Source: Oscillospiraceae bacterium | GTDB lineage: Bacteria > Bacillota > Clostridia > Oscillospirales > Oscillospiraceae | Assembly (NCBI GenBank): GCA_022846075.1 | Contig: AP025582.1 | Coordinates: 310,001-374,000 of the forward strand | Direction of reading: 5' to 3' | Length of the DNA stretch: 64,000 nt | Shown: positions 11,016 through 46,438 of the stretch, piece after piece | Numbering within the stretch: the first letter of the stretch is position 1 | Layout: each line of letters starts with the position of its first letter | Notes under the pieces: model-generated | Told to the model about the DNA's origin: nothing | What the model saw: only the letters and a program-made list of their open reading frames with translations | Database searches by the model: none | Program-made: the position numbers and the translations under genes

Positions 11016-12158
11016 TTATTTTTTGAGCTCCTCCCGGGCGATAATGTTTTTCTGAATTTCCGAGGTGCCCTCATAAATGGGAATGATTCGGGCATCCCGG
11101 TACATCCGCTCCAAGGGGTAGTCCCGCATGTAGCCGTAGCCGCTGTGGATCTGGAGGGCCTTGTTGGTGACCTCCACGGCCATCTCGGAGGCATAGTATT
11201 TGGCAATGGCCGCAATCTCGGTGGCGTTCTCGCCCCGATCCATAGTCTGGGCCGCCTCATAGATAAGGGCCCGGGCGGCGGCAATCTTGGTGGCCATGTC
11301 GGCGACATACCACTGTAAGCCCTGCTGCTTTTCCAGGGGCTTGCCGAACTGGACACGGACCTTCAGATAGTCCTTGGACAGGCGCAGGGCCTCCTCGGCG
11401 ATGCCCAGGGCTTGGGAGGCCATGCCCACCCGGCCGCCGTCCAGCGCCTCCATAAAGATTTTAAAACCCTTGCCCTCGGCGCCCAGCAGGTTGGCCTTGG
11501 GCACCCGACAGTCTTCAAAAATCAGCTCGGACACATCGGCGGCCCGGATGCCAAGCTTTTCCTCCCGCTTGCCCACGATAAAACCGGGAGTGCCGCGGTC
11601 CACGATAATGGTGGACATGCCCTTATATCCCTTGGAGGGGTCGGTGAGGGCCAGAATGGTGACGAAATCGCCTTCGTTGGGGCCCATATTGCTGATAAAG
11701 CACTTGGAGCCGTTGATGACATACGTATCCCCATCCAGCACGGCGGTAGTCTGGACATTGGCCGCGTCGGAGCCGGCGTTGGGCTCTGTGAGGGCAAACC
11801 CGGCGATCCAGCCCTTGACGGAGCCGGTAAGATACTTTTCCTTCTGCTCGGGGGTGCCGTATTTGATGATACTGGTGATGGCCATGGTATGGACCGACAT
11901 TACCTCGGCAGTGCTGGCGCACTGCTTGGCAAGCTCAGTGACCATCAGGGATTTTTCCATCATGCCGAAGCCAGCACCGCCGTATTCCGTGGGCACGCCG
12001 ATGCCCATAAAGCCCAATTTGCCCAGCTTTTCCAAAATAGCGGGGTCCATCGCCTCGTTTTTATCCATTTCGGCCGCAACGGGAGAGAGCTCGTTATCCG
12101 CAAATTCCTTCGCCAAGGCCTGGATCATTTTCTGTGCTTTCGTCAGCTGAAAAGCCAT
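11016..12158 (-). CDS. Acyl-CoA dehydrogenase
   Basis: 380 residues, the usual length. FAD and substrate motifs are clear: GFALTEPNAGSDAANVQTTA (about 127-146), GSKCFISNM, and the C-terminal IPIYEGTSEIQKNIIA with the expected catalytic Glu in YEGTSE. The enzyme oxidises or reduces the alpha-beta bond of a short acyl-CoA and exchanges electrons with the Etf encoded just upstream (etfA ends 31 bases before it). It is the second of three acyl-CoA dehydrogenases in the window and part of the operon controlled by the sigma-54 promoter at 14262-14277. Chain length is not predictable; butyryl- or branched-chain type is likely. Confidence 0.92.
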   Translation of the reverse strand: MAFQLTKAQKMIQALAKEFADNELSPVAAEMDKNEAMDPAILEKLGKLGFMGIGVPTEYGGAGFGMMEKSLMVTELAKQCASTAEVMSVHTMAITSIIKYGTPEQKEKYLTGSVKGWIAGFALTEPNAGSDAANVQTTAVLDGDTYVINGSKCFISNMGPNEGDFVTILALTDPSKGYKGMSTIIVDRGTPGFIVGKREEKLGIRAADVSELIFEDCRVPKANLLGAEGKGFKIFMEALDGGRVGMASQALGIAEEALRLSKDYLKVRVQFGKPLEKQQGLQWYVADMATKIAAARALIYEAAQTMDRGENATEIAAIAKYYASEMAVEVTNKALQIHSGYGYMRDYPLERMYRDARIIPIYEGTSEIQKNIIAREELKK

Positions 12159-12189: not shown

Positions 12190-13296
12190 TCAGGCCTGGA
12201 CCTTGGCGGCCTTGAAGGAGTCGATCATCGCGGGCACCACCTTGAACAGATCGCCGCAGATGCCGTAGTCGGCGGCCTGAAAAATGGGGGCGGCGGCATT
12301 CTTGTTCACGGCGATGATATGTTCGGAATCCTGCATCCCGGCCAAGTGCTGAATCGCGCCGGAAATACCGAGGGCGATGTAGATGCGGGGATGGACCGTC
12401 TTGCCTGTCTGGCCCACCTGGTGGTCGGCGGGCATCCAACCGCTGTCCACCACGGAGCGGGAAGCACCCACGACGCCGCCCAGGACCTGGGCTAGCTCCT
12501 CCGCCAGCCGGATCCCTCCCTGGACGTCGCTTGATATGCCGCGGCCCACGGAAACCACCACTTCAGCGCCGGTGAGGTCCACCAGCTTCCGGGTCTCCTT
12601 GACAATCTCACGGACCCTGGTTTGGAGGTCGGCCTCGGACAGAGTAAAGCCTGGGCGGATAATCTCCACGGCCTTGGCTCTGTCGGCGTCAAAGGGAGCC
12701 TTTTTCATCACACCGGGCCGGACGGTAGCCATCGCGGGCCGGAATCTGGGACAGATAATGGTGGCCATCAGATGGCCGCCGAAAGCGGGACGGGTCATCT
12801 TCAGATCCCGGTTTGCCGTATCCCAGGTGGAGCCGTCCACATCCAGCGTGGAGTTCTCCCGCAGGAAGTCCATATACTTGGGCACGTCTACATCCAAGTG
12901 GGTGCAGTCGGCGCACAGGCCGGTGCGGAGCCGGGCGGCGCAGCGGGGAGCCAGGTCGCGGCCGAGATTGGACGCGCCGAAGAGCATGACTTCAGGCTTG
13001 AACACCTCAATACAGTCAACGATGACCTTGGTGTAAGCGTCGGTGGTGTAGTCCTTCAAAGCGGGGGACTGGCAGAGGTAAACCTTGTCGGCCCCATAGC
13101 CGCCCAGCTCGCCGGCCAGGCCCTCTACGCTGTCGCCCAGCAACAGGCCGCACAGGTCCACCCCCAGCTCGTCGGCCAGCTTTCGTCCCTCGGAGATCAG
13201 CTCGAAGGTAGTGGGCATCATTTTGCCCTGGCGCTGCTCACAGAAGACCCAGACGCCCTTAAAGGCGGCGATATCCGTACTATTGTAATTTCCCAT
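12190..13296 (-). CDS. etfA: Electron transfer flavoprotein alpha subunit (set 1)
   Basis: 368 residues, about 30-40 more than minimal EtfA because of an N-terminal extension (YNSTDIAAFKGVWVFCEQRQGKM), also present in set 3. The C-terminal FAD domain shows [54 protein letters not shown] and the terminal NKNAAAPIFQAADYGICGDLF. With EtfB it carries electrons to or from the acyl-CoA dehydrogenase in the same operon. In clostridia such complexes can bifurcate electrons to ferredoxin; the sequence fits but does not prove it. 17 bases separate it from etfB. Confidence 0.94.
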   Translation of the reverse strand: MGNYNSTDIAAFKGVWVFCEQRQGKMMPTTFELISEGRKLADELGVDLCGLLLGDSVEGLAGELGGYGADKVYLCQSPALKDYTTDAYTKVIVDCIEVFKPEVMLFGASNLGRDLAPRCAARLRTGLCADCTHLDVDVPKYMDFLRENSTLDVDGSTWDTANRDLKMTRPAFGGHLMATIICPRFRPAMATVRPGVMKKAPFDADRAKAVEIIRPGFTLSEADLQTRVREIVKETRKLVDLTGAEVVVSVGRGISSDVQGGIRLAEELAQVLGGVVGASRSVVDSGWMPADHQVGQTGKTVHPRIYIALGISGAIQHLAGMQDSEHIIAVNKNAAAPIFQAADYGICGDLFKVVPAMIDSFKAAKVQA

Positions 13297-13313: not shown

Positions 13314-14114
13314 TCAGATGACGTGCTTGGCGGACAAGATAGCGGCCAGCTTATCGGTGGTATCCCTTCCGGCCCCCTCCAGCATCATGCCGGAGCCCTT
13401 TTGAGGCGGGGTAAAGGACTTAAAAATGTTGGTAGGGGAGCCCTTCAGGCCAATGGTGTCCAGCTCGATCAGCGGCTCGTCCTTGAGGGCCTCGAAATCC
13501 ATGACGGTGAGCGGCTTGTCAAAACAGTCCCGGATGCCACGCATGGACATGTATCTGGGCTCGTTCAGCTCTTTGATACAGGTCAGCAGGCATGGCGTTT
13601 TGGACTCTACCACCATATAGCCGTCCTCCAACATTCGCTTGCAGACCACGCCGCCATCCTCCTTGGCAATATCCGCCACGTAGGAGATCTGGGGCAGCCC
13701 CAGCTTTTCGGCGATCTGAGGGCCGACCTGGGCGGTATCGCCGTCAATGGCCTGCCGGCCACAGAGAATAATGTCGTCCTGCTCCACCCCGATTTTGTGG
13801 ATGGCGGCGGCCAGGATTTGAGAGGTGGCGAAGGTATCGGAGCCGCCAAACTCCCGGGCGGAGACCAGCACAGCCTCGTCGGCGCCCATGGCCATCAGTT
13901 CCCGGAGCATCCCCTCTGCGGGAGGGGGGCCCATGGTAATGACCAAAACTTTGCAGCCGGTAAGATCTTTCAGCCGCAGAGCGGCTTCTACGGCGTTTTT
14001 GTCGTCTGGGTTGGTAATGGTCTGCATAGAGGCCCGGTTCAGGGTGCCGTCGGGATTGACCGCCACCTTACCGGAGGTGTCGGGAACCTGCTTAACACAA
14101 ACAATGGCTTTCAT
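13314..14114 (-). CDS. etfB: Electron transfer flavoprotein beta subunit (set 1)
   Basis: 266 residues. MKAIVCVKQVPDTSGKVAV opens the protein, GMLRELMAMGADEAVLVSAREFGGSDTFAT (about 70-99) and GRQAIDGDTAQVGP (about 116-129) form the nucleotide/FAD region, and GLKGSPTNIFKSFTPP (near 225-240) is the linker contacting EtfA. All these are as in clostridial, potentially bifurcating Etf. It is the first gene of the five-gene operon; a 5' leader of about 135 bases separates it from the candidate sigma-54 promoter. AAAAAAGGAGTG precedes the start. Confidence 0.94.
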   Translation of the reverse strand: MKAIVCVKQVPDTSGKVAVNPDGTLNRASMQTITNPDDKNAVEAALRLKDLTGCKVLVITMGPPPAEGMLRELMAMGADEAVLVSAREFGGSDTFATSQILAAAIHKIGVEQDDIILCGRQAIDGDTAQVGPQIAEKLGLPQISYVADIAKEDGGVVCKRMLEDGYMVVESKTPCLLTCIKELNEPRYMSMRGIRDCFDKPLTVMDFEALKDEPLIELDTIGLKGSPTNIFKSFTPPQKGSGMMLEGAGRDTTDKLAAILSAKHVI

Positions 14115-14261: not shown

Positions 14262-14277
14262 TACAAGCCGCGTGCCA
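14262..14277 (-). promoter_or_regulatory. Candidate sigma-54 promoter P1 (etfB operon)
   Basis: On the minus strand TGGCACGCGGCTTGTA: perfect TGGCACG at -24, and TTGT instead of TTGC at -12, with correct spacing. The first 14 bases equal those of the perfect promoter at 46423. The -12 deviation lowers confidence. An AAGCGG-G-CCGCTT palindrome (14286-14298) lies just upstream. The rest of the 14115-14561 gap holds the etfB leader, the inverted repeat at 14398 and the promoter at 14484. Confidence 0.6.
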
Positions 14278-14397
14278 ATTTCGTGAAGCGGGCCGCTTTC
14301 GTGAAAAATTTATCATACATGCCTTGGGAGGCCAGGGCCCCGGCGGTTTGATGCTTGGATTCTCAGGGCCTTTATGCGGGAAAAAGGGAGGCTGGCT

Positions 14398-14442
14398 GAA
14401 CCAATTTTGAAAGAATGCGGTGCCTGATTTCAAAAATGGTTC
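14398..14442. promoter_or_regulatory. Inverted-repeat candidate enhancer site
   Basis: GAACCAATTTTGAAA (14398-14412) and TTTCAAAAATGGTTC (14428-14442) are inverted copies with one mismatch in 15, their centres 30 bases apart. The pair lies about 120-165 bases upstream of P1, the usual position for a sigma-54 activator site, and between P1 and the activator gene at 14562. Confidence 0.55.
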
Positions 14443-14483
14443 ACTTGTATCAAATTTCAATAAAATAAGTTATATTTTTGCTG

Positions 14484-14512
14484 TTGAAACCGTGAAATAA
14501 ATATGCTATTTT
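14484..14512 (+). promoter_or_regulatory. Sigma-A promoter of the tandem activator gene
   Basis: TTGAAA (14484-14489) and TATTTT (14507-14512) are separated by exactly 17 bases, in an AT-rich stretch 50 bases before the GTG start. Confidence 0.65.
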
Positions 14513-14561
14513 AAAAACAGGGAACTTTTTAAAAGGTTTATTAGGCGAGAGGAGTGATTCT

Positions 14562-17240
14562 GTGGTCAACCGCGAAGCGTTTCTTCACATGCCCATGGAG
14601 ATGTTGTCCATTATTTTGGAACAGCTTCCAAATCCCGTATTTGCCGTGCAGGACGACCACAGTGTCCTCTATGCCAATTTGGCCGCCCGCTCGGTGCTGG
14701 GCCTCCGGCGGGGAGAGATCCTGACAGAGCGGGATGGGCTGCTTTTGCACCCAAGCTGGCAGGATGCCACCTGCCTGGCCCGGGATGCGGGCATTCAGGA
14801 CATCTTCCGTATCCGGCTGGGGGATGCCGCCTATCTGTGCTTCCAAAAATATGTTCCCGACGAAGGGGACAAGTCCATTTTTTCCATTGTTAGCGTGCAG
14901 GAGGAGTCCCAGGGCTATGACCTCTATTTCGACTGCAAAAAGGAGGGGACCGCCGGCGGTGAGGGGGAGGACGAGCGCTTCCTCTCCCGGTCCGTTCAGA
15001 TGGAGCCCGTTTTGAAGATGTGCGCGCGGTGCGCCCCCAGTGATCTGCCCATCCTCTTTTTGGGGGAGTCGGGTTCGGGCAAGACCATGCTGGCGGAGTA
15101 TGTCCACCGGCACAGCCGGCGGAGGTCCGGCCCCTTCCTGGTTCTCAACTGTGCGGCCATTGCCAGGGATCTGTTGGAATCGGAGCTCTTTGGATACGCC
15201 CCCTATGCCTTTACCAACGCTTCGTCTAAGGGGAAAAAGGGCCTTTTTGAGCTGGCTGACGGCGGCACGCTCCTGCTGGATGAAATCGGCGACATGCCTA
15301 TGGAACTGCAGGCCAAGATTTTGACTGCGGTAGAGACTCAGAGCATTCTCCCCATCGGCGGCCGGGAGTACAGGTCGGTCAATGTGCGGGTCCTGGCCGC
15401 CACGAATAAGGACCTGGCGCAGCTGGTGCGGCAGGGAGCGTTCCGGCAGGACCTGCTGTGGCGGCTCAACACGGTAGAGGTGCGCCTGCCCCCGCTGCGG
15501 GAGCGGCCCGACGACATCCTCTATATCGCCGACCATTTCCGAAGTGTTTACAACGACCTCAACGGTACCGACCTGCGCTTTACGCCGGAGCTGATGCTGT
15601 TCCTCCAAAGCTACGACTGGCCGGGTAATGTGCGGCAGCTCAAGAACACAGTGGAAAAAATGCTCTTCCTGTCGCGGGATACCCAGATCCCTCTCTCGGC
15701 CGCCCGGGGCCTGTTCGGCTCCCGGCCGGAGCGGACCGGGGCCGCCACCTATGCCGAGCGGATCGAGGAGCGGGAGCGCCGGTTCATCCAAAGCCAGTAC
15801 CGGCGATATCCCTCCACCCGGAAATTGGCGGCTGCGCTCAAGGTCAGTCAGACCACCGCCACCCGGCTTATCCGCAAATATGTCAGCCAGGAGGATGACA
15901 CCGCGGGGGCCTTTGCCGCTGTGGCAAGCCATACCCGGCAGGAAAACGCCCAGGGCCGGCTGACCCAGCAGCAGCTCTACACCATCTTGGACAGCATCCC
16001 AAACCGGGTGTGCGTAGTGGACCAGGACCTGGTCTGCATTGCCGAAAAATACCGGGACTCTGCCTCGGCCGCTTTTGCCGCATCCCCCACAACCGCCATG
16101 TACCGCTCGGGTTATAAACTGGCCAGTGTCAAGCAGCGGCCCATCGTGCTGGAGTACGTCACCACCACCGGGAAGCAGCGCCAGAGTATCATTGCGCCCA
16201 TCCGGGACGAAGAGGGGAACAGTGTTCTCTACGCCAGCATCACCCAGATCCATTTCAGCCAGGAGACCATACGTCGCCGCCGGGAGGTCTGCCGCAGGAA
16301 AAGCCGGCTCCATGTGGGTGGCAGGGATTTTCTGTTCTTTGGCGCCTCGCCGGAGATGCGCCTTTTCCTCCAGGACGCCGTACGCTCCGGGTGGCAGGAC
16401 CTCTCAGTGCTCATCCAGGGTGAATCCGGGACCGGCAAGAGCGTTTTTGCCCGGTATATCCACGAGCTGGGTAGCCGCCGGGGAGGGCCGTTTGTCTGTG
16501 TCAACTGCGCCAGCATCCCGGAAAATCTGGTTGAGTCAGAGCTGTTTGGTTACGAAAAGGGGGCCTTTACCGGGGCAAGTCCCCAGGGAAAGGAGGGCCT
16601 TTTTCAGCTGGCCGACCGGGGGACCCTGTTTCTGGACGAGATCGGGGACCTGCCCCTGCCCGCTCAGGCCAAGCTGTTGGATGTCATCGAGAACAAGCGC
16701 TTTATCCCCATTGGGGGCAGCAAGGTGATCTTCTCTGACGTGCGGGTGATTTGTGCAACCAACCAGGATCTCAAGGAGCTGATCCGCCTGAAAAAGTTCC
16801 GTGAGGACCTCTATTGGCGGATTAATGTCATCGAGCTCACGGTTCCGCCTCTGCGTGCCCGGGGAGACGACATTGAACGCTACGCCGAATTTTTCCTCAA
16901 GCAGTGCAACATCCGCTGCGGGACGGAAAAACGATTCGCTCCGGAGGTCATCAGCCTGTTCCTCCTCTACAGCTGGCCCGGGAACCTGCGCCAGCTGGCC
17001 AACCTCATCGAACGCAGTCACATCATGTCGGACGGTGAAGTGATCCGGCCCGAGGACCTGCCGGAGGAGTTCCAAATCACGCAGGACCCCGCCTCTCTGC
17101 TCCAGTACAGCGTGCTCCAGCGCAAATGGGATCGTGAGATATTTTCCGATGCGCTCCAGCGCTACGGCTCCGCTCAGGAGGCCGCCGCCGCCCTGGCGGT
17201 CAGCAGCGCCACTGTTTCCCGGAAGCGGGCCAAGATTTGA
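14562..17240 (+). CDS. Tandem sigma-54-dependent activator: PAS-AAA-HTH-PAS-AAA-HTH in one chain
   Basis: 892 residues from GTG 14562 (GAGAGGAG before it), about twice the usual activator length. First module: PAS-like region (about 12-120), AAA+ with Walker A GESGSGKT (168-175), Walker B LLLDE (237-241), WPGNVRQL, and an HTH (about 418-440). Second module: PAS-like (about 473-570), Walker A GESGTGKS (620-627), GAFTGA (667-672), Walker B LFLDE (689-693), WPGNLRQL, HTH (about 872-890). In module one the sigma-54-contacting GAFTGA loop is changed to YAFTNA (215-220) while ATP motifs are kept. Module two should therefore drive open-complex formation, with module one perhaps regulatory or structural. 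Divergent from the etfB operon, it likely controls P1-P3. Confidence 0.93.
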   Translation: MVNREAFLHMPMEMLSIILEQLPNPVFAVQDDHSVLYANLAARSVLGLRRGEILTERDGLLLHPSWQDATCLARDAGIQDIFRIRLGDAAYLCFQKYVPDEGDKSIFSIVSVQEESQGYDLYFDCKKEGTAGGEGEDERFLSRSVQMEPVLKMCARCAPSDLPILFLGESGSGKTMLAEYVHRHSRRRSGPFLVLNCAAIARDLLESELFGYAPYAFTNASSKGKKGLFELADGGTLLLDEIGDMPMELQAKILTAVETQSILPIGGREYRSVNVRVLAATNKDLAQLVRQGAFRQDLLWRLNTVEVRLPPLRERPDDILYIADHFRSVYNDLNGTDLRFTPELMLFLQSYDWPGNVRQLKNTVEKMLFLSRDTQIPLSAARGLFGSRPERTGAATYAERIEERERRFIQSQYRRYPSTRKLAAALKVSQTTATRLIRKYVSQEDDTAGAFAAVASHTRQENAQGRLTQQQLYTILDSIPNRVCVVDQDLVCIAEKYRDSASAAFAASPTTAMYRSGYKLASVKQRPIVLEYVTTTGKQRQSIIAPIRDEEGNSVLYASITQIHFSQETIRRRREVCRRKSRLHVGGRDFLFFGASPEMRLFLQDAVRSGWQDLSVLIQGESGTGKSVFARYIHELGSRRGGPFVCVNCASIPENLVESELFGYEKGAFTGASPQGKEGLFQLADRGTLFLDEIGDLPLPAQAKLLDVIENKRFIPIGGSKVIFSDVRVICATNQDLKELIRLKKFREDLYWRINVIELTVPPLRARGDDIERYAEFFLKQCNIRCGTEKRFAPEVISLFLLYSWPGNLRQLANLIERSHIMSDGEVIRPEDLPEEFQITQDPASLLQYSVLQRKWDREIFSDALQRYGSAQEAAAALAVSSATVSRKRAKI

Positions 17241-17383: not shown

Positions 17384-17399
17384 TGGCATTTATTTTGCT
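17384..17399 (+). promoter_or_regulatory. Sigma-54 promoter P2 (second etfBA)
   Basis: TGGCATTTATTTTGCT: TGGCA at -24 and TTTGC at -12 with GG and GC 12 bases apart. The expected start of transcription is near 17410, about 35 bases before the gene. Confidence 0.75.
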
Positions 17400-17444
17400 T
17401 GTTATTTATAAGAAGGGCGTTTGTTTATTTTGGAGGTGATCTCT

Positions 17445-18206
17445 TTGCGAGTGCTTGTCTGCGTTCAGCAAGTGCCTGATTGGAGAGAAGAAATATCTTT
17501 CACCGCCCCAGAGGGCGTTCCCCAAGGGCTGGACCCCTGTTCAGGGTATGCGCTGGAAGTGGCGGCCCGCATCCGGGATATCCGGCCGCAGACACATATC
17601 ACTGTCCTTGCGCTGGAGGGGGAACTCGCACTGCGGGAGAGCCTGGCCGTGGCGGCGGATCAAGCGTTCCTGATTGCTGCTCCTCCGTCTGATCCTCGGG
17701 AGCCCTTGTTCAAGGGCGTCATCCTCGCCCACGCCGTTCAGGCTATAGAAGATCGGGAAGGGACCTTTGACCTTATCCTCTGCGGTCAGCAGTCATCGGA
17801 TGGGGCCAGCGGTCAGACCGGTCCGTTCCTCGCCCAAACCCTGGGTAGAGCCTTGGTATCCAAAGTCCTCTCTGTCTCTCTGGAGGAGGATGGCTTTCTC
17901 CTTGACCGGGAGACGGATGGCGGTGTTCAGACAGTTGAGGCGGATACCCCATGTGTGGCGCTGTGTACAAAGCCCGGCTGGGAGCTCCGCCATCCCACGA
18001 TCCTGCGAAAGATGGCCTCGCGCGACGCGGACATCCCGGAGTTCTCAACCGACGGACTGGCCGGGCCCGCTCCGGCGGGATCGATTCGGGTCCTCCAACG
18101 CCTTCCGGCCCGGCGGAAGGCGGGGACCGTTTGGATCCGGGAGGTTTCCGGTGGCCAGGCGGCCCGAAAGCTCTTGACTCTGCTGGAAGAATGGCAGATA
18201 CGATAA
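17445..18206 (+). CDS. Divergent electron transfer flavoprotein beta subunit (set 2)
   Basis: 253 residues from TTG 17445, chosen because GGAGG (17432-17436) is 8 bases upstream and the protein then opens with RVLVCVQQVPDW, the EtfB start. It keeps the fold marks (FDLILCGQQSSDG, GQTGPFLAQTLG) but has lost several residues seen in sets 1 and 3: GDTAQVGP is reduced to GASGQTGP, the GMLRELLAMGADEAVLV loop is rewritten, and the GLKGSPTN linker is absent. It could be a non-bifurcating or specialised Etf. Followed 12 bases later by its EtfA partner and driven by P2. Confidence 0.85.
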   Translation: MRVLVCVQQVPDWREEISFTAPEGVPQGLDPCSGYALEVAARIRDIRPQTHITVLALEGELALRESLAVAADQAFLIAAPPSDPREPLFKGVILAHAVQAIEDREGTFDLILCGQQSSDGASGQTGPFLAQTLGRALVSKVLSVSLEEDGFLLDRETDGGVQTVEADTPCVALCTKPGWELRHPTILRKMASRDADIPEFSTDGLAGPAPAGSIRVLQRLPARRKAGTVWIREVSGGQAARKLLTLLEEWQIR

Positions 18207-18218
18207 GGAGCGTTTATT

Positions 18219-19208
18219 ATGGAACACAAAGGGGACCTTTGGGTGTGGATTGAGACCGGCGCAGGCAGACAGGAAAGCCTTGCGCTTCTTGGCGGCGGAA
18301 AATCACTGGCACGCGCTTGGGGTGGGCGGCTCACCGCCGTGGTGATAGGCCCCCGGGCGGAGCGCACCATCACCCTGGCAGGGGCATCCGGGGCCGACAG
18401 GATCCTCGCTGTGACGGACGGGGCCCGGGATGAGGGGGACGCCCGCTATTATGCTTTCGCGCTTCAAGCCCTGGCACAGCGCCATCGGCCTATGGTCATT
18501 CTCCTCACGGCTACGCAGCTGGGTCGGGATGTGGCCCCCCGCCTCGCCGCGGGGCTGGAGGTGGGACTGTCCACCGAGTGCGTGGCCCTAAATTGGGACA
18601 GGTCCGCCGGCCGTGTTATCTTTACCAGGCCCGTCTTGGGGGGCAGAGAGCTGGTTTCACAGCTGTGGGACGGCCCCGGCCCACAGCTGGCCACCGTTCG
18701 CCCCGGCGTCTTTCACCGTTCGGAGCCTGTGCTTCAATCGCCGCCTCCGCTGGAATGGGAGTCGATTCCTTTTGCCCCCGATCCGGTCCGTGTCCGCGGC
18801 CTGGTTCGTGGGATGGAGCGGGATGGGGTGGATCTGGAGGGGGCGGATATCATCGTCGCCGGAGGCCGTGGAGTGGGAGGGCCGGAGGGCTTTGAGCTGA
18901 TCCGGTCCGTGGCCGGAACCCTGGGCGGGGTGGTGGGGGCCTCCCGTGCCGCCGTGGATTTGGGCTGGATTTCTTACGCGCATCAGGTGGGGCAGACGGG
19001 GAAAACCGTGGCCCCCCGGCTGTATCTCGCCTGCGGCATCTCCGGGGCAGTACAGCATATGGCGGGCATGAGCGGCTCCGACGTAATCGTGGCCATCAAC
19101 CGTGATTCAGACGCTCCAATCTTTCGGGCGGCGGACTACGCGGTGGTGGGGGACCTGTTTCAGGTGCTTCCGCCGCTGGCGGCGGAGCTGGACGCGCGCA
19201 GGGGATAA
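18219..19208 (+). CDS. Divergent electron transfer flavoprotein alpha subunit (set 2)
   Basis: 329 residues, shorter at the N-terminus than EtfA of sets 1 and 3. The FAD domain is well kept: [56 protein letters not shown], and the end [23 protein letters not shown]. The N-terminal half is diverged but keeps [17 protein letters not shown]. It forms a dimer with the EtfB of 17445-18206. The nearest dehydrogenase is the convergent gene at 19321-20463, which has its own sigma-54 promoter and is the likely partner. Confidence 0.88.
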
Positions 19209-19320: not shown

Positions 19321-20463
19321 TTATCGGAACAGCCGCCCGGAGAGGATCAGCTTTTGGATCTCGTTGCTTCCCTCATAGATCTGGGTGATTTTGGCGTCAC
19401 GCATCATGCGCTCCACGTGGTATTCCTTCATAAATCCGTTGCCGCCGAGCATCTGCACCGCCTCGGTGGTGACATGCATGGCGGCGTCGGTGCACACCAG
19501 CTTAGCTTTGGCGGCGGACTCGGTATAGGGGCGGCCCTCCTGCTTGTCGAGGGCGGCCTTATAGAGCATATATTTCGCCTGCTCAATCTCCACCGCCAGC
19601 TCCGCCATCCGAAAGGCCAAATGCTGCTGCTTGTAAAGGGGCTTTCCGAACTGCTCCCGCTCCATCAAATAGTTCCGGGCAATCTCAAAGGCACCCTCGG
19701 CAATGCCCAAGCCCTGAGCAGCCACGCCGATCCGGCCTCCGTCCAGAGACTTCATGGCCAGGGCGAAGCCCTTGCCGGGCTCAGCCACCAAGTTTTCCGT
19801 GGGGATACGGCAGTTGTTGAAATACAGCTCACACACCAGGGCGCTGCGGATGCCCATGGTGTCGTGGCGTTTGCCCTGCTCAAAGCCGGGCACCCCCTTG
19901 GGGACCATGAAACAGGCCATTCCTTTGGTGCCCAGGGCGGGGTCTGTAAGGGTGAACACCACAAAGTAATCGGACAGGGGACCGTTGGTAATAAAGCATT
20001 TGGAGCCGTTGATGACCCACTCGTCTCCATCCCGCACAGCCACCGTTTTACAGCCGGCGGCGTCCGAACCGGCGCTGGGCTCAGTGAGGGCAAAGGAGCC
20101 AAGTGCCTTACCGGAGGCCACCGGACGGATCAGCTCAGCCTTTCTTTCGGTGGGCAGATCGGAATTCATGATGACACCGCAAAATAGGGAGGTGCAGACG
20201 GAATAGGTAATTCCCATAGAGGCATCCAGCTTGGAGATCTCCTCCAAAGAGAGGACGTAGGACAGGTAGTCGCCGCCCTGGCCGCCCATTTCTACAGGGT
20301 ATGGAAGGCCGATAAGACCCATACGGCCCATCTCATCAAAATGGGCACGGGAAAATTCAGCGGCCGCGTCCCGTTCCAGAATGTCCTTGGCTAAAGTGCG
20401 CTCAGTGAAGTCGCGGGCAATTTTTTGGGCGTCCAGCTGGTTGGCGGTCAATTCGAAATTCAT
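19321..20463 (-). CDS. Acyl-CoA dehydrogenase (butyryl-CoA dehydrogenase-like)
   Basis: 380 residues. FALTEPSAGSDAAG (about 122-135), GSKCFITNG, MGIRSALVCELYF, REQFGKPLYKQQ, QMLGGNGF and the C-terminal QIYEGSNEIQKLILSGRLFR with the catalytic-Glu region are all present. Short-chain acyl-CoA dehydrogenase that needs an Etf; no Etf gene is in its own transcript, so set 2 opposite is the natural partner. It has its own sigma-54 promoter P3 about 65 bases upstream, implying co-control with the etf operons. Substrate chain is not defined. Confidence 0.92.
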   Translation of the reverse strand: MNFELTANQLDAQKIARDFTERTLAKDILERDAAAEFSRAHFDEMGRMGLIGLPYPVEMGGQGGDYLSYVLSLEEISKLDASMGITYSVCTSLFCGVIMNSDLPTERKAELIRPVASGKALGSFALTEPSAGSDAAGCKTVAVRDGDEWVINGSKCFITNGPLSDYFVVFTLTDPALGTKGMACFMVPKGVPGFEQGKRHDTMGIRSALVCELYFNNCRIPTENLVAEPGKGFALAMKSLDGGRIGVAAQGLGIAEGAFEIARNYLMEREQFGKPLYKQQHLAFRMAELAVEIEQAKYMLYKAALDKQEGRPYTESAAKAKLVCTDAAMHVTTEAVQMLGGNGFMKEYHVERMMRDAKITQIYEGSNEIQKLILSGRLFR

Positions 20464-20525: not shown

Positions 20526-20541
20526 AGCAAACTTTATGCCA
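20526..20541 (-). promoter_or_regulatory. Sigma-54 promoter P3 (acyl-CoA dehydrogenase)
   Basis: On the minus strand TGGCATAAAGTTTGCT: TGGCA at -24, TTTGC at -12, correct spacing. Expected transcription start is near 20515. Between P3 and 20660 I see no gene. Confidence 0.75.
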
Positions 20542-20659
20542 ACTTTTATCTTTTGAAATTGCGGCGGTTTTTGCATGTGTTCCGTGTTTTCTGAACCGTT
20601 TCGGGCGAATTGGCCCTGAGTCTCTTGCATTCCTGGTTCGGCGATGAATGGGGATGTGC

Positions 20660-20706: not shown

Positions 20707-20736
20707 AAGGGGTCAAAATCTGGATGGGCGGCCGAT

Positions 20737-21243
20737 TCAAATCTGCTCTTTGGCCAGCCGGGCGCAGACCTCCCGCAGGGAGTGGTCCGGGGGGATCTCC
20801 CCGTCCCTGGCCAGGGATAGGGCCCCCGTGGGGCACACACGGACGCAGGCGGGCTCCTCTCCCGCCCGCAGCCGCTCCACGCAGCCGTCGCACTTACGCA
20901 TCTTCCCGTCGGCTCCAAAGGCGGGGGCGCCGAAGGGGCAGGCCATGGCGCAGGAGTGGCAGCCGATGCAGTCGGTGTTGTCGAAGAGGGTCAGGCCGGT
21001 GGCCTCGTCCTTGTAGAGGCAGCCCACCGGGCAGGCCAGCACGCAGGGGGCGTTGTCACAGTGCATGCAGGCCACGGAGTAGTAGCTGGCGCAGGCGCCT
21101 ATCCGCTCCGGCTCCTGGCGGAACACCGTGCGGAAGGGTCGCTCCCCGGCGGGGATGTCCACGTCGTTCTGGTCCATGCAGGCAATGGCGCAGGCCCCGC
21201 AGGCGCAGCAGCGGTCGATGTCCAGTTCAAAATAGCGGCTCAC
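20737..21243 (-). CDS. Four-cluster ferredoxin subunit of a molybdopterin oxidoreductase (DmsB/NrfC type)
   Basis: 168 residues from GTG 21243, which overlaps the stop of the molybdopterin subunit (GTGA); the long open frame to 21651 is unrelated sequence. Four [4Fe-4S] Cys groups are visible: CCACGACAIAC, CMHCDNAPCVLAC, CIGCHSCAMAC and CDGC paired with CVRVC. This is the electron-transfer subunit that wires the molybdopterin catalytic subunit to another carrier. No membrane anchor gene follows, so the complex is probably cytoplasmic and linked to the FAD oxidoreductase of the same operon. Confidence 0.92.
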   Translation of the reverse strand: MSRYFELDIDRCCACGACAIACMDQNDVDIPAGERPFRTVFRQEPERIGACASYYSVACMHCDNAPCVLACPVGCLYKDEATGLTLFDNTDCIGCHSCAMACPFGAPAFGADGKMRKCDGCVERLRAGEEPACVRVCPTGALSLARDGEIPPDHSLREVCARLAKEQI

Positions 21244-23366
21244 GCTTCCACCACCTTTTCCATCTGACAGTAGGCGCTCCGGTAGGCCGGGAAGCCGGAG
21301 TAGGGGTCCAGGGCGTCGGGGTCCAGCAGGGCGTTCATGTCCGACTCCCGGTAGCCGTGGTAGGTGTAGACCTCCCCGGCGCGGACGGTGGCGGTGGGCA
21401 GGACCTTGAGGACCGTGCTCCCCCAGGGGGTGGAGATACGGATCCGGTCCCCCTCCTCCACGCCCAGCTTTTCCGCGTCCTCCAGGCTGATCTCCGCCCC
21501 CGGCTCGGGCCGCAGGCTCCGGGCCCAGGGCACGTCGTGGAGCCGGGAGTGGAGGGCATTGGGGATGCGCACCCCGGCGGAGAGGGTGTAGGGGTACTCC
21601 GCCCCGCCGGACTTGGGGGGCGTGTAGGTGGGCAGGGGGTCCAGCCCCCATTCCGGGTGGGCGGCGATGACCTCGGAATAGAGCTCAAACTTCCCCGAGG
21701 GGGTGGGGAGGCCCTTGTCCAGCCATTTCCCGGCCTCCGGCGGGGCGAAATCCGGCAGCCTCACGGGGGCGGGGCTCTGCCGCAGGGCGTCGATGGATAC
21801 GGGCAGGTCCTGGAGGATGTAAGCCGAACAGGCGTCATAGCCCGCCTTCAAAAGGTCGTCGTCCAGATCCATTTTTTGGGCCAGGAGGGTGAGGATGTCT
21901 GCGTCGGACTTGGCCTTCCCCAGGGGCTCCACCACGGGGCTCGTGTACCACAGGTAGCCGCCGGGATAACACTTGAGCTCCCCCCGCTCCATGGAGGTGC
22001 AGGCGGGCAGGACGAGGTCGGCGTACTTGGCGGTGTCGGTGAGGAAGAGGTCCACGTCCACGAAAAAGTCCAGCGCTTTGAGGGCTTCGACGAGCTTGCC
22101 GTCACCGGGAAACATCCGCAGGTTCATCCCCAGGGAAAAAACGGCCTTCATGGGCCGGGGCTTCCCGGTGAGGATGCGGCGACTCAGGTCCATGGCCTGG
22201 CCCTCCCGGCGGCACTCGTACCACAGGGGGAACCGCTCGGCCCCCACGGCGGCGGGGGCGCCGGCGGGGAAGCGGCCGTTCATGAATTCCTCTTCCCGGG
22301 TCTCAAAGCCGCAGGGCATCTCCATGTAGGTGTGGGGGGCGGGGAGCTGGCCGCCGGGGCGGTCGTAATTGCCGGTGATGGCCAGCAGGGCCATGATGGC
22401 CCGGTAGCTCTGCATCCCGTTGGCGTGGTGGCCGATGGGGGCGCTGCTCTCACTGACGCACATACGCTCCGCCCGGGCCATCATCTTGGCGGCCAGGGCG
22501 GCCTGCTCGTAGGGGACGCCGGTGAGGGCCTCCACGTTGGAGGAATTAAACCCTGCGGCGTAGGCGGCGTAGGCCTCGAAGCCGTGGACATAACGGGCGA
22601 CATACTCCCGGTCGATCCAGCCGTTTTGGATGAGCTCGTTAGCGATGGTCAGGGCCAGGGCCCCGTCGGTGCCGGGGCGGGGGTGGAGCACCAGGTCGGC
22701 CAACCGCTGGGCGGGGGTGGTGCGGGGGTCGATGATGATGACCTTCATCCCCCGCTTCCGGTTCTCCTCCACGGCGGCAGGCTGGAGATAGCGGGAGTAG
22801 TACCCGCTGAAGCCCCAGCCCACGAAGAGGTCGCAGCGGGGCAGGTCCATCCCGGCGGGCAGGCCGGTGGCCACCTGCCAGGCCATCAGCCCGGAGGTAA
22901 AGCAGGCGCTGGACTCGGTGCAGTAGTTCTGGCTGCCGAAGACGTGGGCGAACCGGCGGAACATGGGCCGGTACCACTTGGAGTAGCCGGAGAAGAAGGT
23001 GACGGCGTCCGCCCCGTGGGCCGCCCGGATGTCCAGCAGGCGGCGGGAAATTTCCTCCAGGGCCTCGTCCCAGGAGATGGGCTCAAATTTTCCCTCACCC
23101 CGCTCCCCCACCCGGCGCAGGGGGGTGAGGATGCGGTCGGGCCGGTAGAGGTATTGGCGGTTGCACAGGCCCTTGGTGCAGAGTTTGCCGCGGTTCACAG
23201 GGTGGTTTTTATTCCCCTCCACCTTCAGGACCTTGCCGTCCTTCACGTACACGTCCAGGCCGCAGTGCATCTGGGGGGTGCAGATGTCGCACAGGGTGTG
23301 GCGCACCTCGATGCCGGTCTCGGCCCCGGGGATCTTGCCGTGGAGCAGCGCTTCCTGTCGTGTCAT
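21240..23366 (-). CDS. Molybdopterin (DMSO reductase family) oxidoreductase, catalytic subunit
   Basis: 708 residues from ATG 23366, where it overlaps the FAD protein stop; the open frame beyond this is the shadow of that gene. The N-terminus holds an Fe-S site (CDICTPQMHC, about 26-35, with CTKG about 28 residues later), then NRQYLYRPDRILTPLRR, a WDEAL motif and YCTESSACFTSG, whose Cys is a candidate metal ligand. GWGFSGYYSRY, IIIDPRTTPAQRLADLVLHPRPGTDGAL and the C-terminal domain with GDRIRISTPWGS complete the family layout. No Tat signal is seen, so a cytoplasmic enzyme. Family members act on sulfur oxyanions, formate or small organics; the substrate is unknown. Confidence 0.92.
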   Translation of the reverse strand: MTRQEALLHGKIPGAETGIEVRHTLCDICTPQMHCGLDVYVKDGKVLKVEGNKNHPVNRGKLCTKGLCNRQYLYRPDRILTPLRRVGERGEGKFEPISWDEALEEISRRLLDIRAAHGADAVTFFSGYSKWYRPMFRRFAHVFGSQNYCTESSACFTSGLMAWQVATGLPAGMDLPRCDLFVGWGFSGYYSRYLQPAAVEENRKRGMKVIIIDPRTTPAQRLADLVLHPRPGTDGALALTIANELIQNGWIDREYVARYVHGFEAYAAYAAGFNSSNVEALTGVPYEQAALAAKMMARAERMCVSESSAPIGHHANGMQSYRAIMALLAITGNYDRPGGQLPAPHTYMEMPCGFETREEEFMNGRFPAGAPAAVGAERFPLWYECRREGQAMDLSRRILTGKPRPMKAVFSLGMNLRMFPGDGKLVEALKALDFFVDVDLFLTDTAKYADLVLPACTSMERGELKCYPGGYLWYTSPVVEPLGKAKSDADILTLLAQKMDLDDDLLKAGYDACSAYILQDLPVSIDALRQSPAPVRLPDFAPPEAGKWLDKGLPTPSGKFELYSEVIAAHPEWGLDPLPTYTPPKSGGAEYPYTLSAGVRIPNALHSRLHDVPWARSLRPEPGAEISLEDAEKLGVEEGDRIRISTPWGSTVLKVLPTATVRAGEVYTYHGYRESDMNALLDPDALDPYSGFPAYRSAYCQMEKVVEA

Positions 23367-24628
23367 GTCCGTCCCTCCAGTTGCCGGATGAAGCTGGGGG
23401 TGAGGCCCTCCTTGAGAAGGACGCCCCGCTGGACGTCCTCCAGGGCGTGGCCCTTCCCCTTGAGCATCCGGTAGAAGTAGTTTTTCACCGCGCCGGAGAC
23501 GCGGTAGCTGTCCAGGATGTTGACCCCTGCCAGCTCGTCCCCGTCCATGACGGCGTGGATGTAGAGCCCCTTGTCCGGGGCGCCCAGGATACAGTCCCGG
23601 CCCCCGCGGCGGTTGTCCCCCATGCCCACGAAGTCCATGTTCATGAAGTGGGTGATGTTGTGGAGGATGTTGCCGTCGAACCGCTCCTCCCCGCCGGCCA
23701 TGTTGGCCCCGGCGGTGACCCCCTGGTGACCGGCGTTGGCCCACAGGCCGATGATGAGGTTCTGTCCCGACTGGAGGTCGGTGCCCTCGCAGCAGTCCCC
23801 GGCGGCGTAGACGCCGGGACAGGAGGTCTCCATGCGGGAATTGACGGTGATGCCCCGGCCCAGGGAAATCTCCGCCGGGTCCACCAGGGCGGTGTTGGCC
23901 CGGGTGCCGATGCAGAGGACCACGATGTCGGCGGGGGTCTCGCTGCCGTCGGTCATGTGGCAGAGAAGGCCCGTCCCCGTCTCCCTGGCCCCGTCCATGG
24001 CGCAGCCGAAGCGCAGCTCCACGCCCTGGGCGGTGAGGCGGCCCTCGATGGCCTTGGCCACCTCGGGGTAGGTGGACAGGGGGAAGATGCGCCCGGCCAT
24101 GTCGGCCAGCAGCACCTCCAGCCCGGCGGCCCGGCACAGCTCCACCACCTTGATGCCCACCATGGAGGCCCCCACCACCAGCACCCGTTTCAGGTCCCCC
24201 TGGGACAGGCGGGCGCGCAGGGCCTGGGCGTCGTCCATGGTGCGCATGAGGAAGGTGCGGTCTTTGGGGAGCCCCTCGATGGGCGGGGCGAAGGCCCTGG
24301 CCCCGGTGGAAAGCAGGATGGAGTCGAAGGTCTCGCTCTCCCCGCCCTCCAGCAGAAGTCGGCGGTTTTTCCCGTCCACCCGGGAAACCCGGCAGTTGGG
24401 CCGCAGGTCCAGCCGCAGCCGCGCGCCGATCTCCGGCAGGCTCCCGAAGGGGAAGGCGGCGTCAAAGGGGATGCGCCCGGCGGCGTAGTAGGTGGTGAGC
24501 ATGGGGTTGTAGGGGGCCAGGGAGTGGTCGGAAAAGACGGAAATCTCCGCCTGGGGGTCCCGGCGGCGCAGCTCCTCGGCGGCGTGGTAGCCAGCGCAGC
24601 CGAAGCCCACGATGGCGCACCGCCTCAT
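23363..24628 (-). CDS. FAD-dependent NAD(P)H oxidoreductase (pyridine nucleotide-disulfide class)
   Basis: 421 residues from ATG 24628, overlapping the upstream aminotransferase stop by 4 bases. Features: N-terminal FAD site VGFGCAGYHAAEEL (8-21), central NAD(P)H site VVGASMVGIKVVEL, and GVYAAGDCCEG with the Asp that contacts FAD. No redox CxxxxC is present, so it belongs with nitrite reductase/NADH-oxidase-like FAD proteins rather than disulfide reductases. In this operon it most likely shuttles electrons between NAD(P)H and the ferredoxin of the molybdopterin enzyme. Confidence 0.85.
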   Translation of the reverse strand: MRRCAIVGFGCAGYHAAEELRRRDPQAEISVFSDHSLAPYNPMLTTYYAAGRIPFDAAFPFGSLPEIGARLRLDLRPNCRVSRVDGKNRRLLLEGGESETFDSILLSTGARAFAPPIEGLPKDRTFLMRTMDDAQALRARLSQGDLKRVLVVGASMVGIKVVELCRAAGLEVLLADMAGRIFPLSTYPEVAKAIEGRLTAQGVELRFGCAMDGARETGTGLLCHMTDGSETPADIVVLCIGTRANTALVDPAEISLGRGITVNSRMETSCPGVYAAGDCCEGTDLQSGQNLIIGLWANAGHQGVTAGANMAGGEERFDGNILHNITHFMNMDFVGMGDNRRGGRDCILGAPDKGLYIHAVMDGDELAGVNILDSYRVSGAVKNYFYRMLKGKGHALEDVQRGVLLKEGLTPSFIRQLEGRT

Positions 24629-44383: not shown

Positions 44384-44399
44384 AGCAAGAATTGTGCCA
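44384..44399 (-). promoter_or_regulatory. Sigma-54 promoter P4 (thl-hbd-crt-bcd-etfBA)
   Basis: On the minus strand TGGCACAATTCTTGCT: perfect TGGCAC at -24 and TTGC at -12, correct spacing. It lies between the nifU-like stop codon and thl, so the butyrate operon has its own start point. Confidence 0.85.
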
Positions 44400-44844: not shown

Positions 44845-44919
44845 AAACGAAACTTCTTATTGAGCTGAATTTTGTATGAAATCACCAAACCTGCGGTCAA
44901 AGGAGGTCTTTCACCCGCC

Positions 44920-46311
<1,392 letters not shown>

Positions 46312-46315
46312 CGGT

Positions 46316-46384
46316 TGATTTAAATTTAAATCATTTATTCAAAAATAAATCAAAAAGTCCGCCTTATGATTCAAAAACAAATCA
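46316..46384 (+). promoter_or_regulatory. Three-site candidate enhancer upstream of P6
   Basis: Sites of form TGATT-N8-AATCA occur at 46316-46333 (fully palindromic TGATTTAAATTTAAATCA) and 46367-46384, with a weaker TTATT-N8-AATCA at 46335-46352. They start right after the activator stop codon, 40-107 bases upstream of the -24 element. This spacing and the dyads fit binding of the neighbouring activator. Confidence 0.6.
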
Positions 46385-46400
46385 TAAGGCGGACTTTTTG
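46351..46400 (+). terminator. Terminator of the activator gene
   Basis: Perfect 21-base arms (46351-46371 and 46380-46400) around an 8-base loop, A-tract before and T-tract at the end (GGACTTTTTG). It overlaps the third enhancer-like dyad. Confidence 0.8.
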
Positions 46401-46422: not shown

Positions 46423-46438
46423 TGGCACGCGGCTTGCA
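46423..46438 (+). promoter_or_regulatory. Sigma-54 promoter P6 (CoA-transferase and abfD)
   Basis: TGGCACGCGGCTTGCA matches the -24/-12 consensus at every conserved position (TGGCACG-N4-TTGCA). Expected transcription start is about 46450, 50 bases before the gene. Confidence 0.92.

Follow-up and report, generated by a model that had tools for sequence, protein, structure and literature searches.

A predicted sigma-54 activator with two AAA+ and two helix-turn-helix modules in one chain beside Etf/acyl-CoA-dehydrogenase operons of Oscillospiraceae

A survey of 490 enhancer-binding proteins (EBPs) from 57 species of Clostridiales reported one central AAA+ domain per protein (PMC6615313). Two unlike subunits are combined in HrpR and HrpS, which form an obligate hetero-hexamer (PMC7057263), and an engineered linked-dimer PspF (Joly and Buck 2011, cited in PMC4132715) was active with unlike neighbouring subunits. 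By cryo-electron microscopy, the PspF subunits of a single ring were seen to differ in their roles (PMC12054792). Engineered dimers and cryo-electron microscopy have so far been the means of approaching an open mechanistic question, namely to what extent the six AAA+ subunits of a sigma-54 activator need to differ in behaviour. Here we describe a gene for a predicted double-module sigma-54 activator in a 64,000-nucleotide stretch of an Oscillospiraceae bacterium (contig AP025582.1, positions 310,001 to 374,000), hereafter the window. An earlier note on this DNA, based on the sequence alone, had singled out the gene as an activator of undescribed form. Our text searches of the literature agreed with this view, as they returned no description of a double-module activator. 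Where the phrase "two AAA+ domains" occurred in two of the papers found, it referred to neighbouring subunits or to two compared proteins, not to one chain.

Two modules in a single reading frame

The gene is a single uninterrupted open reading frame (ORF) of 892 codons with a GTG start. Pfam assigned to its product two stretches each of Sigma54_activat (PF00158, 411 bits over the whole protein), AAA_lid_14 and HTH_50, the last being of helix-turn-helix (HTH) type, together with one N-terminal PAS domain. The presence of two AAA+ domains and two HTHs in one frame, as proposed earlier, is thereby confirmed. The AAA+ and HTH parts were modelled confidently by AlphaFold2 in both halves of the protein, and NtrC1 (1ny5) was the best solved-structure match for each half. 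None of 500 shuffles gave a better alignment than that between HTH1 and HTH2, and their recognition helices differ, so that each chain carries two kinds of HTH. The second PAS domain claimed in the earlier note (PAS2) fared less well than the first, which was found by Pfam. An AlphaFold2 model of residues 441-892 gave residues 446-590 a PAS-like order of strands and helices at a predicted local distance difference test score (pLDDT) of only about 35-65, and the likeness of the two PAS sequences was marginal (24 of 500 shuffles were as good). These data are in part consistent with a second PAS. A long opposite-strand ORF (14541-16313) overlaps the gene and is probably a shadow of biased codons.

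The sequence motifs were located where the earlier note had placed them. Module 1 carries Walker A (GESGSGKT) at residues 168-175, Walker B (LLLDE) at residues 237-241 and the loop YAFTNA at residues 215-220, and module 2 carries GAFTGA. Walker A and B, the arginine-finger segment and the WPGN-R sensor II are intact in both modules of all four orthologs described below; the arginine-finger and sensor II positions are those that we take to correspond to PspF. The sole striking difference between the modules is the L1 loop, YAFTNA in the first AAA+ domain (AAA1) versus GAFTGA in the second (AAA2), each invariant in the four orthologs. The window protein is 82-83% identical to the other three in AAA1 and 75-79% identical in AAA2. 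The ratio of nonsynonymous to synonymous substitution rates ranged from 0.07 to 0.12 for AAA1 and from 0.04 to 0.14 for AAA2 (six pairs, with synonymous sites near saturation). Judging from these comparisons, both modules are maintained by selection. Among 173 EBP AAA rows from the fetched loci, the loop was parsed in 142 and left unparsed in 31. YAFTNA occurred in the three ortholog rows and in none of the other 139 parsed loops, 138 of which have G at the first position. It is a fair inference that the AAA1 loop is specialised.

When compared with the defining features of bacterial enhancer-binding proteins (bEBPs), the protein contains the AAA+ ATPase signatures twice, the GAFTGA loop exactly in module 2 and inexactly in module 1, and a Fis-type HTH as two HTH_50 stretches; the usual single module per chain is absent. 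On the target side, the genome encodes RpoN, and -24/-12 promoters and an upstream enhancer are predicted from the sequence. By every tested feature except module number and the module 1 loop the predicted activator is thus a bEBP, and the number of modules is its variant feature, one module per chain being no essential of the bEBP mechanism.

A second genus of the family, represented by 20 genomes, yielded full-length orthologs with 73-74% identity over residues 2-891 in three of them (G266, G342 and G335), and all three share the architecture and the module 1 loop of the window protein. One in-frame TAG, close to residue 571, separates the PAS2-like region from AAA2 in the ortholog of G335 (L157 6306-8996, G335:C42) and reflects either a mistake in the sequence or a genuine division of the two modules. 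Within the window's own genus the gene was found in one of 16 genomes, namely the window's genome itself. Wider draws at the family, class and order levels recovered it in 2 of 400, 1 of 391 and 2 of 394 genomes, respectively, solely in the window's genome and G266; the draws overlap, and the top two candidates were scored per genome. With two or three candidates each, such draws test for close orthologs and not for all double-module proteins. Across the genomes searched, the gene thus has a rare and patchy occurrence, confined to two genera.

Other double-module EBPs were sought among 127 EBP-AAA ORFs of the first 124 loci, many of them short, which gave only the window's frame. No two PF00158 rows shared a frame among the matches listed for a sample of 61 genomes from the phylum, a weak test in which the window's own pair was also unlisted. 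One candidate, with both matches in a frame of 1036 aa (G111:C6), proved to be two ORFs with one stop between them. A plasmid origin of the gene was rejected, as no match was obtained at 1e-90.

Enhancer, promoters and target operons

A long inverted repeat (GTGAACC, spacer, GGTTCAC) lies between the gene and the divergent promoter in all four loci. In the window, each of its arms contains two half-sites (TTTCA-N6-GTTCA) 11 bp apart. Clear copies also precede the second acyl-CoA dehydrogenase gene in G335 and G342 (L157 714-755 and L158 13816-13857), two of the three loci in which this gene was observed. All six clear sites are inverted repeats of 42-51 bp, and one or both of their arms contain TTTCA-N6-GTTCA, a pair of similar half-sites spaced by one turn of the helix. 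Their outer-arm spacing is 35, 37, 37, 37, 28 and 28 bp, and a strict helical-phase reading was dropped because of this variation. The use of the two HTHs for enhancer half-sites, suggested in the earlier note, is compatible with two kinds of HTH per chain and an enhancer with more than two half-sites. Its further suggestion that one protein could bridge two promoters is speculative beside these inverted repeats. An enhancer of this length, in which one arm or both contain paired half-sites, provides a definite DNA test of the role of the second HTH.

With one outer-arm mismatch allowed, 20 random first-order sequences gave an expectation of 0.15 matches to the pattern per 64 kb. The exact form TGAACC-N26..40-GGTTCA was found in the window's own genome only at this site and in one perfect hairpin. 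That hairpin (G000:C1:2209088-2209137; 50 bp with ends TGAACC...GGTTCA) is probably a terminator or a repeat, not an enhancer. Among the relatives' genus (20 genomes), all three genomes with the gene contain the pattern, as does one of the 17 without it, and the backwards control matched in none of the 20. The gene-bearing genomes contain five sites, all within about 6 kb of the gene. Since the pattern was drawn from its own sites, this result carries weight chiefly because no further matches occur in the gene-bearing genomes and none at all in 16 of the 17 others. The motif travels with the regulator, and the long inverted repeat is therefore very probably the enhancer of the double activator.

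The candidate sigma-54 promoter of the divergent operon lies 285-296 bp upstream of the gene and points away from it, with one or two mismatches, in all four loci. Another precedes the second acyl-CoA dehydrogenase in all three loci where this gene was seen. The activator gene itself is preceded by a sigma-70-like promoter, which in the three orthologs reads TTGAAA-N17-TAYTCT at the same place. As this promoter is kept in all four loci, expression of the activator need not depend on sigma-54.

The check on etf synteny proposed in the earlier note gave a positive answer, as the gene is linked with etf/acyl-CoA-dehydrogenase operons (Etf, electron transfer flavoprotein) in the window and lies in a related setting in the ortholog loci. 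In the latter the activator stands among acyl-CoA dehydrogenase, Etf, thiolase or CoA-transferase genes in rearranged order, and in G266 other genes follow it before the contig end. The second acyl-CoA dehydrogenase has orthologs of 80-88% identity near the activator in L157 and L158. In two loci of the relatives (L149 903-7578 and L158 2669-7993) the AcrB-type Etf gene is separated from the activator by several genes resembling CoA-transferase family III, which are missing from that position in the window. Coordinates of all features are collected in the table.

The window contains a second, single-module activator of the PAS-AAA-HTH type (44872-46311) beside thiolase and CoA-transferase genes. 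It has exact matches to the sigma-54 promoter on both sides (44384-44399 on the minus strand and 46423-46438 on the plus strand) and palindromes at 46316-46333 and 46351-46400. An opposite-strand ORF at 20724-23474, with no Pfam match, lies over a molybdopterin oxidoreductase gene (21240-24137) and is probably a codon-bias shadow.

Table. Features of the double-module activator locus (positions in the window)
Feature	Position	Strand	Basis
AcrC-like acyl-CoA dehydrogenase	11016..12158	-	Pfam; NF042972 543 bits, below cut-off 640
AcrA-type Etf alpha	12190..13296	-	NF042970 660 bits, cut-off 600
AcrB-type Etf beta, first gene of divergent operon	13314..14114	-	NF042971 500 bits, cut-off 475
Predicted sigma-54 promoter (-24/-12), divergent etf/acyl-CoA-dehydrogenase operon	14262..14277	-	1 mismatch
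Candidate enhancer, long inverted repeat CTGAACC...GGTTCAC	14396..14444		Counterpart in 4/4 loci
Sigma-70-like promoter of activator gene, TTGAAA-N17-TATTTT	14484..14512	+	Kept in 4/4 loci
Double-module sigma-54 activator gene	14562..17240	+	ORF, Pfam, 3 orthologs
PAS1, residues 1-135	14562..14966	+	Pfam PAS/PAS_8 over cut-off; low-confidence model
AAA+ domain 1 and lid, about residues 141-390	14982..15731	+	Pfam; pLDDT mostly >90
Variant L1 loop YAFTNA, residues 215-220	15204..15221	+	Sequence; same in 4/4 orthologs
HTH1, residues 396-440	15747..15881	+	Best Pfam HTH_50 stretch; 3 confident model helices
Linker and possible PAS2, residues 446-590	15897..16331	+	No Pfam match at E<=10; low-confidence PAS-like topology
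AAA+ domain 2 and lid, residues 594-842	16341..17087	+	Pfam; AlphaFold2 model
Canonical L1 loop GAFTGA, residues 667-672	16560..16577	+	Sequence; same in 4/4 orthologs
HTH2, residues 845-892	17094..17237	+	Pfam HTH_50; shuffle-tested alignment with HTH1; model helices
Possible sigma-54 promoter before second etf pair	17384..17399	+	2 mismatches
Second etfB-etfA pair (17421-18206, 18219-19208)	17421..19208	+	Pfam ETF, ETF_alpha
Second acyl-CoA dehydrogenase	19321..20463	-	Pfam
Predicted sigma-54 promoter of second acyl-CoA dehydrogenase	20526..20541	-	1 mismatch; counterparts in L157, L158
Possible degenerate enhancer before the 20526 promoter	20591..20641		3/14 outer-arm mismatches

Proposed ring and alternative explanations

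We propose that the protein may be a natural linked dimer, which would form a ring of alternating unlike subunits and activate the Etf/acyl-CoA-dehydrogenase operons. This reading draws on the sequence and on analogy with PspF and HrpRS, and we regard it as evenly poised. Two or more chains would bind the enhancer via their unlike HTHs, and PAS1, perhaps together with the PAS2-like region, would sense a metabolite. A ring of six AAA+ domains, with modules 1 and 2 in alternation, would be completed by three chains. The loops of module 2 would provide the main sigma-54 power stroke, and module 1 would contribute alternate ATP sites and arginine fingers, along with a loop that is weaker or escapes regulation. 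An Etf/acyl-CoA-dehydrogenase (enoyl-CoA-reducing) fermentation pathway would be the target. More tentatively, and with somewhat less confidence than in the linked dimer as such, we suggest a built-in 3+3 asymmetry of the ring, where GAFTGA power-stroke domains would alternate with ATP-using domains of the specialised YAFTNA type and two chains together would recognise a single long enhancer with their four HTHs, two of each kind. If true, the joining of genes would have fixed in evolution the subunit specialisation that was proposed for PspF rings. The division of labour envisaged in the earlier note fits the conserved ATPase sites of both modules, the invariant odd loop and the behaviour of linked-dimer PspF (PMC4132715). 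As a natural chain with a fixed order of unlike subunits, accompanied by likely enhancers and promoters, the activator would make the question of subunit differences testable in a wild-type protein.

Several observations weigh against this proposal. YAFTNA is possibly fully functional, which would remove the asymmetry between the modules. For the second PAS, neither the window protein nor its ortholog from G266 matched any Pfam family at E<=10. Linkage may be dispensable in G335 unless its TAG is a sequencing error. The sigma-54 pattern with up to two mismatches was seen 16 times in the window versus 16.3 expected; as it is not above chance, the promoters are credible only through their conserved position. 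No enhancer is visible beside the promoter at 17384. The degenerate site at 20591..20641 lacks TTTCA-N6-GTTCA and is insignificant alone, since about 51 such sites are expected per 64 kb. An outer-arm spacing of 28-37 bp implies that no fixed HTH geometry is kept. The enhancer pattern applied to the 20 genomes was derived from the sites that it finds, and several of the 17 genomes without the gene are incomplete. The same pattern misses the window's own site by its first letter, and its one match in a genome without the double activator is at G217:C20:26320-26363. In the tree of AAA domains described below, the grouping of the two modules is unstarred and the branch of module 1 is long.

The alternative that survives best is an ordinary linked activator whose two modules would each remodel sigma-54, with YAFTNA as a working loop variant and module 1 freed from its PAS control. 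We consider it unlikely, although parts of the evidence speak for it. The variant loop retains F and T, the critical residues of the GAFTGA motif. A first-position change is also found in NAFTGA, the loop of the tandem partner gene of L098, and in HAFTGA (L131). The NorR substitution G266N, which corresponds to the G-to-N change at position 5 alone, reduces ATPase activity, yet open complexes are still formed and control by the regulatory domain is bypassed (PMC2941729). That YAFTNA marks a module unable to touch sigma-54 therefore does not follow. On the other hand, the double change with Tyr at the first position is absent from the 139 other parsed loops. YAFTNA is also invariant despite differences between the genera of up to 18% in AAA1 and of 26-27% in the whole protein, as expected for a special role.

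Separate assemblies, with a working six-chain ring of module 2 and with module 1 either in a second ring or outside as a DNA-binding or assembly tether, appear more doubtful. No sequence feature ties module 1 to a module 2 neighbour, and the linker with the PAS2-like region, at about 150 residues, would have sufficient length for both arrangements. The conserved arginine finger and sensors of module 1, however, imply functional interfaces with some neighbour, and linked PspF dimers do work as ring subunits (PMC4132715). Improbable in our view is a TyrR-like regulatory role, in which module 1 would mostly bind DNA and, in response to the signal of PAS1, would repress or gate module 2. HTH1 belongs to the HTH_50 type, and EBP homologs with a defective loop such as TyrR were classed as not sigma-54 dependent (PMC3162934), but that classification concerns loop-inactivating substitutions or deletions, whereas module 1 retains its ATPase signatures as well as F and T in its loop. 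An assembly or annotation artefact joining two genes, named in the earlier note as a possible refutation, has a negligible probability: separate tandem EBP genes exist in relatives, but the window lies within a single 3.23 Mb contig and the same join recurs in three further genomes, which also rules out a chance frame.

Origin of the modules and comparison with known systems

Modules 1 and 2 share 48% identity over 235 residues. When 83 AAA rows, eight from the double protein and the 75 best-scoring others, were placed in a tree, the two modules formed one group with a Shimodaira-Hasegawa-like approximate likelihood ratio test (SH-aLRT) support of 89. This grouping favours a duplication and joining before the two genera parted, and an old duplication is thus the favoured, although not conclusive, origin of the two modules.

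Tandem pairs of EBP genes were observed in the same family (L152 8074-10579, G007:C15; L153 5364-7824, G002:C23; L151 2-2235, G304:C278). In these pairs a PAS-type AAA-HTH gene with the loop GSFTGA or GAFTGA comes first and is followed by a loop-variant AAA partner. In G007 and G002 the canonical-type gene overlaps a PAS-less second gene with the loop NAFTGA (NAXTGA in G002, with an unread base), and the similar pair of G304 has a partner with the loop GTFTGG. Direct descent of the double activator from such pairs is not supported for their canonical-type partners (L098, L100 and L128), which fall outside the group of modules 1 and 2; the 75 other rows of the tree do not include the variant partners. 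The pairs show that adjacent EBP modules of unlike type have arisen repeatedly in the family. By sequence they look like unlinked two-subunit activators, possibly of a HrpRS-like type.

Within the literature searched, which gave no description of a natural two-module chain, the activator is a member of the bEBP family with a new architecture. With the PAS-type clostridial bEBPs, i.e. PrdR and the class surveyed in PMC6615313, it shares PAS, AAA+ and HTH domains, sigma-54 promoters and the regulation of acyl-CoA/Etf and amino-acid fermentation operons, which for the activator is a prediction. These proteins are described with one AAA+ domain, in contrast to its two complete modules per chain. 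The PrdR model gave 582.5 bits over the whole protein in two stretches, below the curated NCBIfam cut-off of 795, and the activator does not qualify as a PrdR equivalog by this score. The tandem pairs resemble it in having two adjacent modules, one of them loop-variant, but they are separate genes with the canonical type first, whereas the activator is one chain with the variant loop first. The VnfA paralogs of Azotobacter, bEBPs that were proposed to hetero-oligomerise (PMC9542535), are a further likeness; they are encoded by separate genes and contain GAF domains, unlike the one-chain PAS activator. HrpR and HrpS of Pseudomonas syringae also provide two unlike bEBP AAA+ subunits. They are, however, two proteins from separate genes, with the characteristic motifs in both and no N-terminal sensor or other cis-regulatory domain (PMC7057263), whereas the activator is one chain from one gene with PAS1 and a variant loop. 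Linked-dimer PspF likewise has two bEBP AAA+ domains per chain (PMC4132715). In contrast to this man-made protein with one type of AAA+ domain, the activator is natural and conserved, and combines PAS, a loop difference between its modules and two HTHs.

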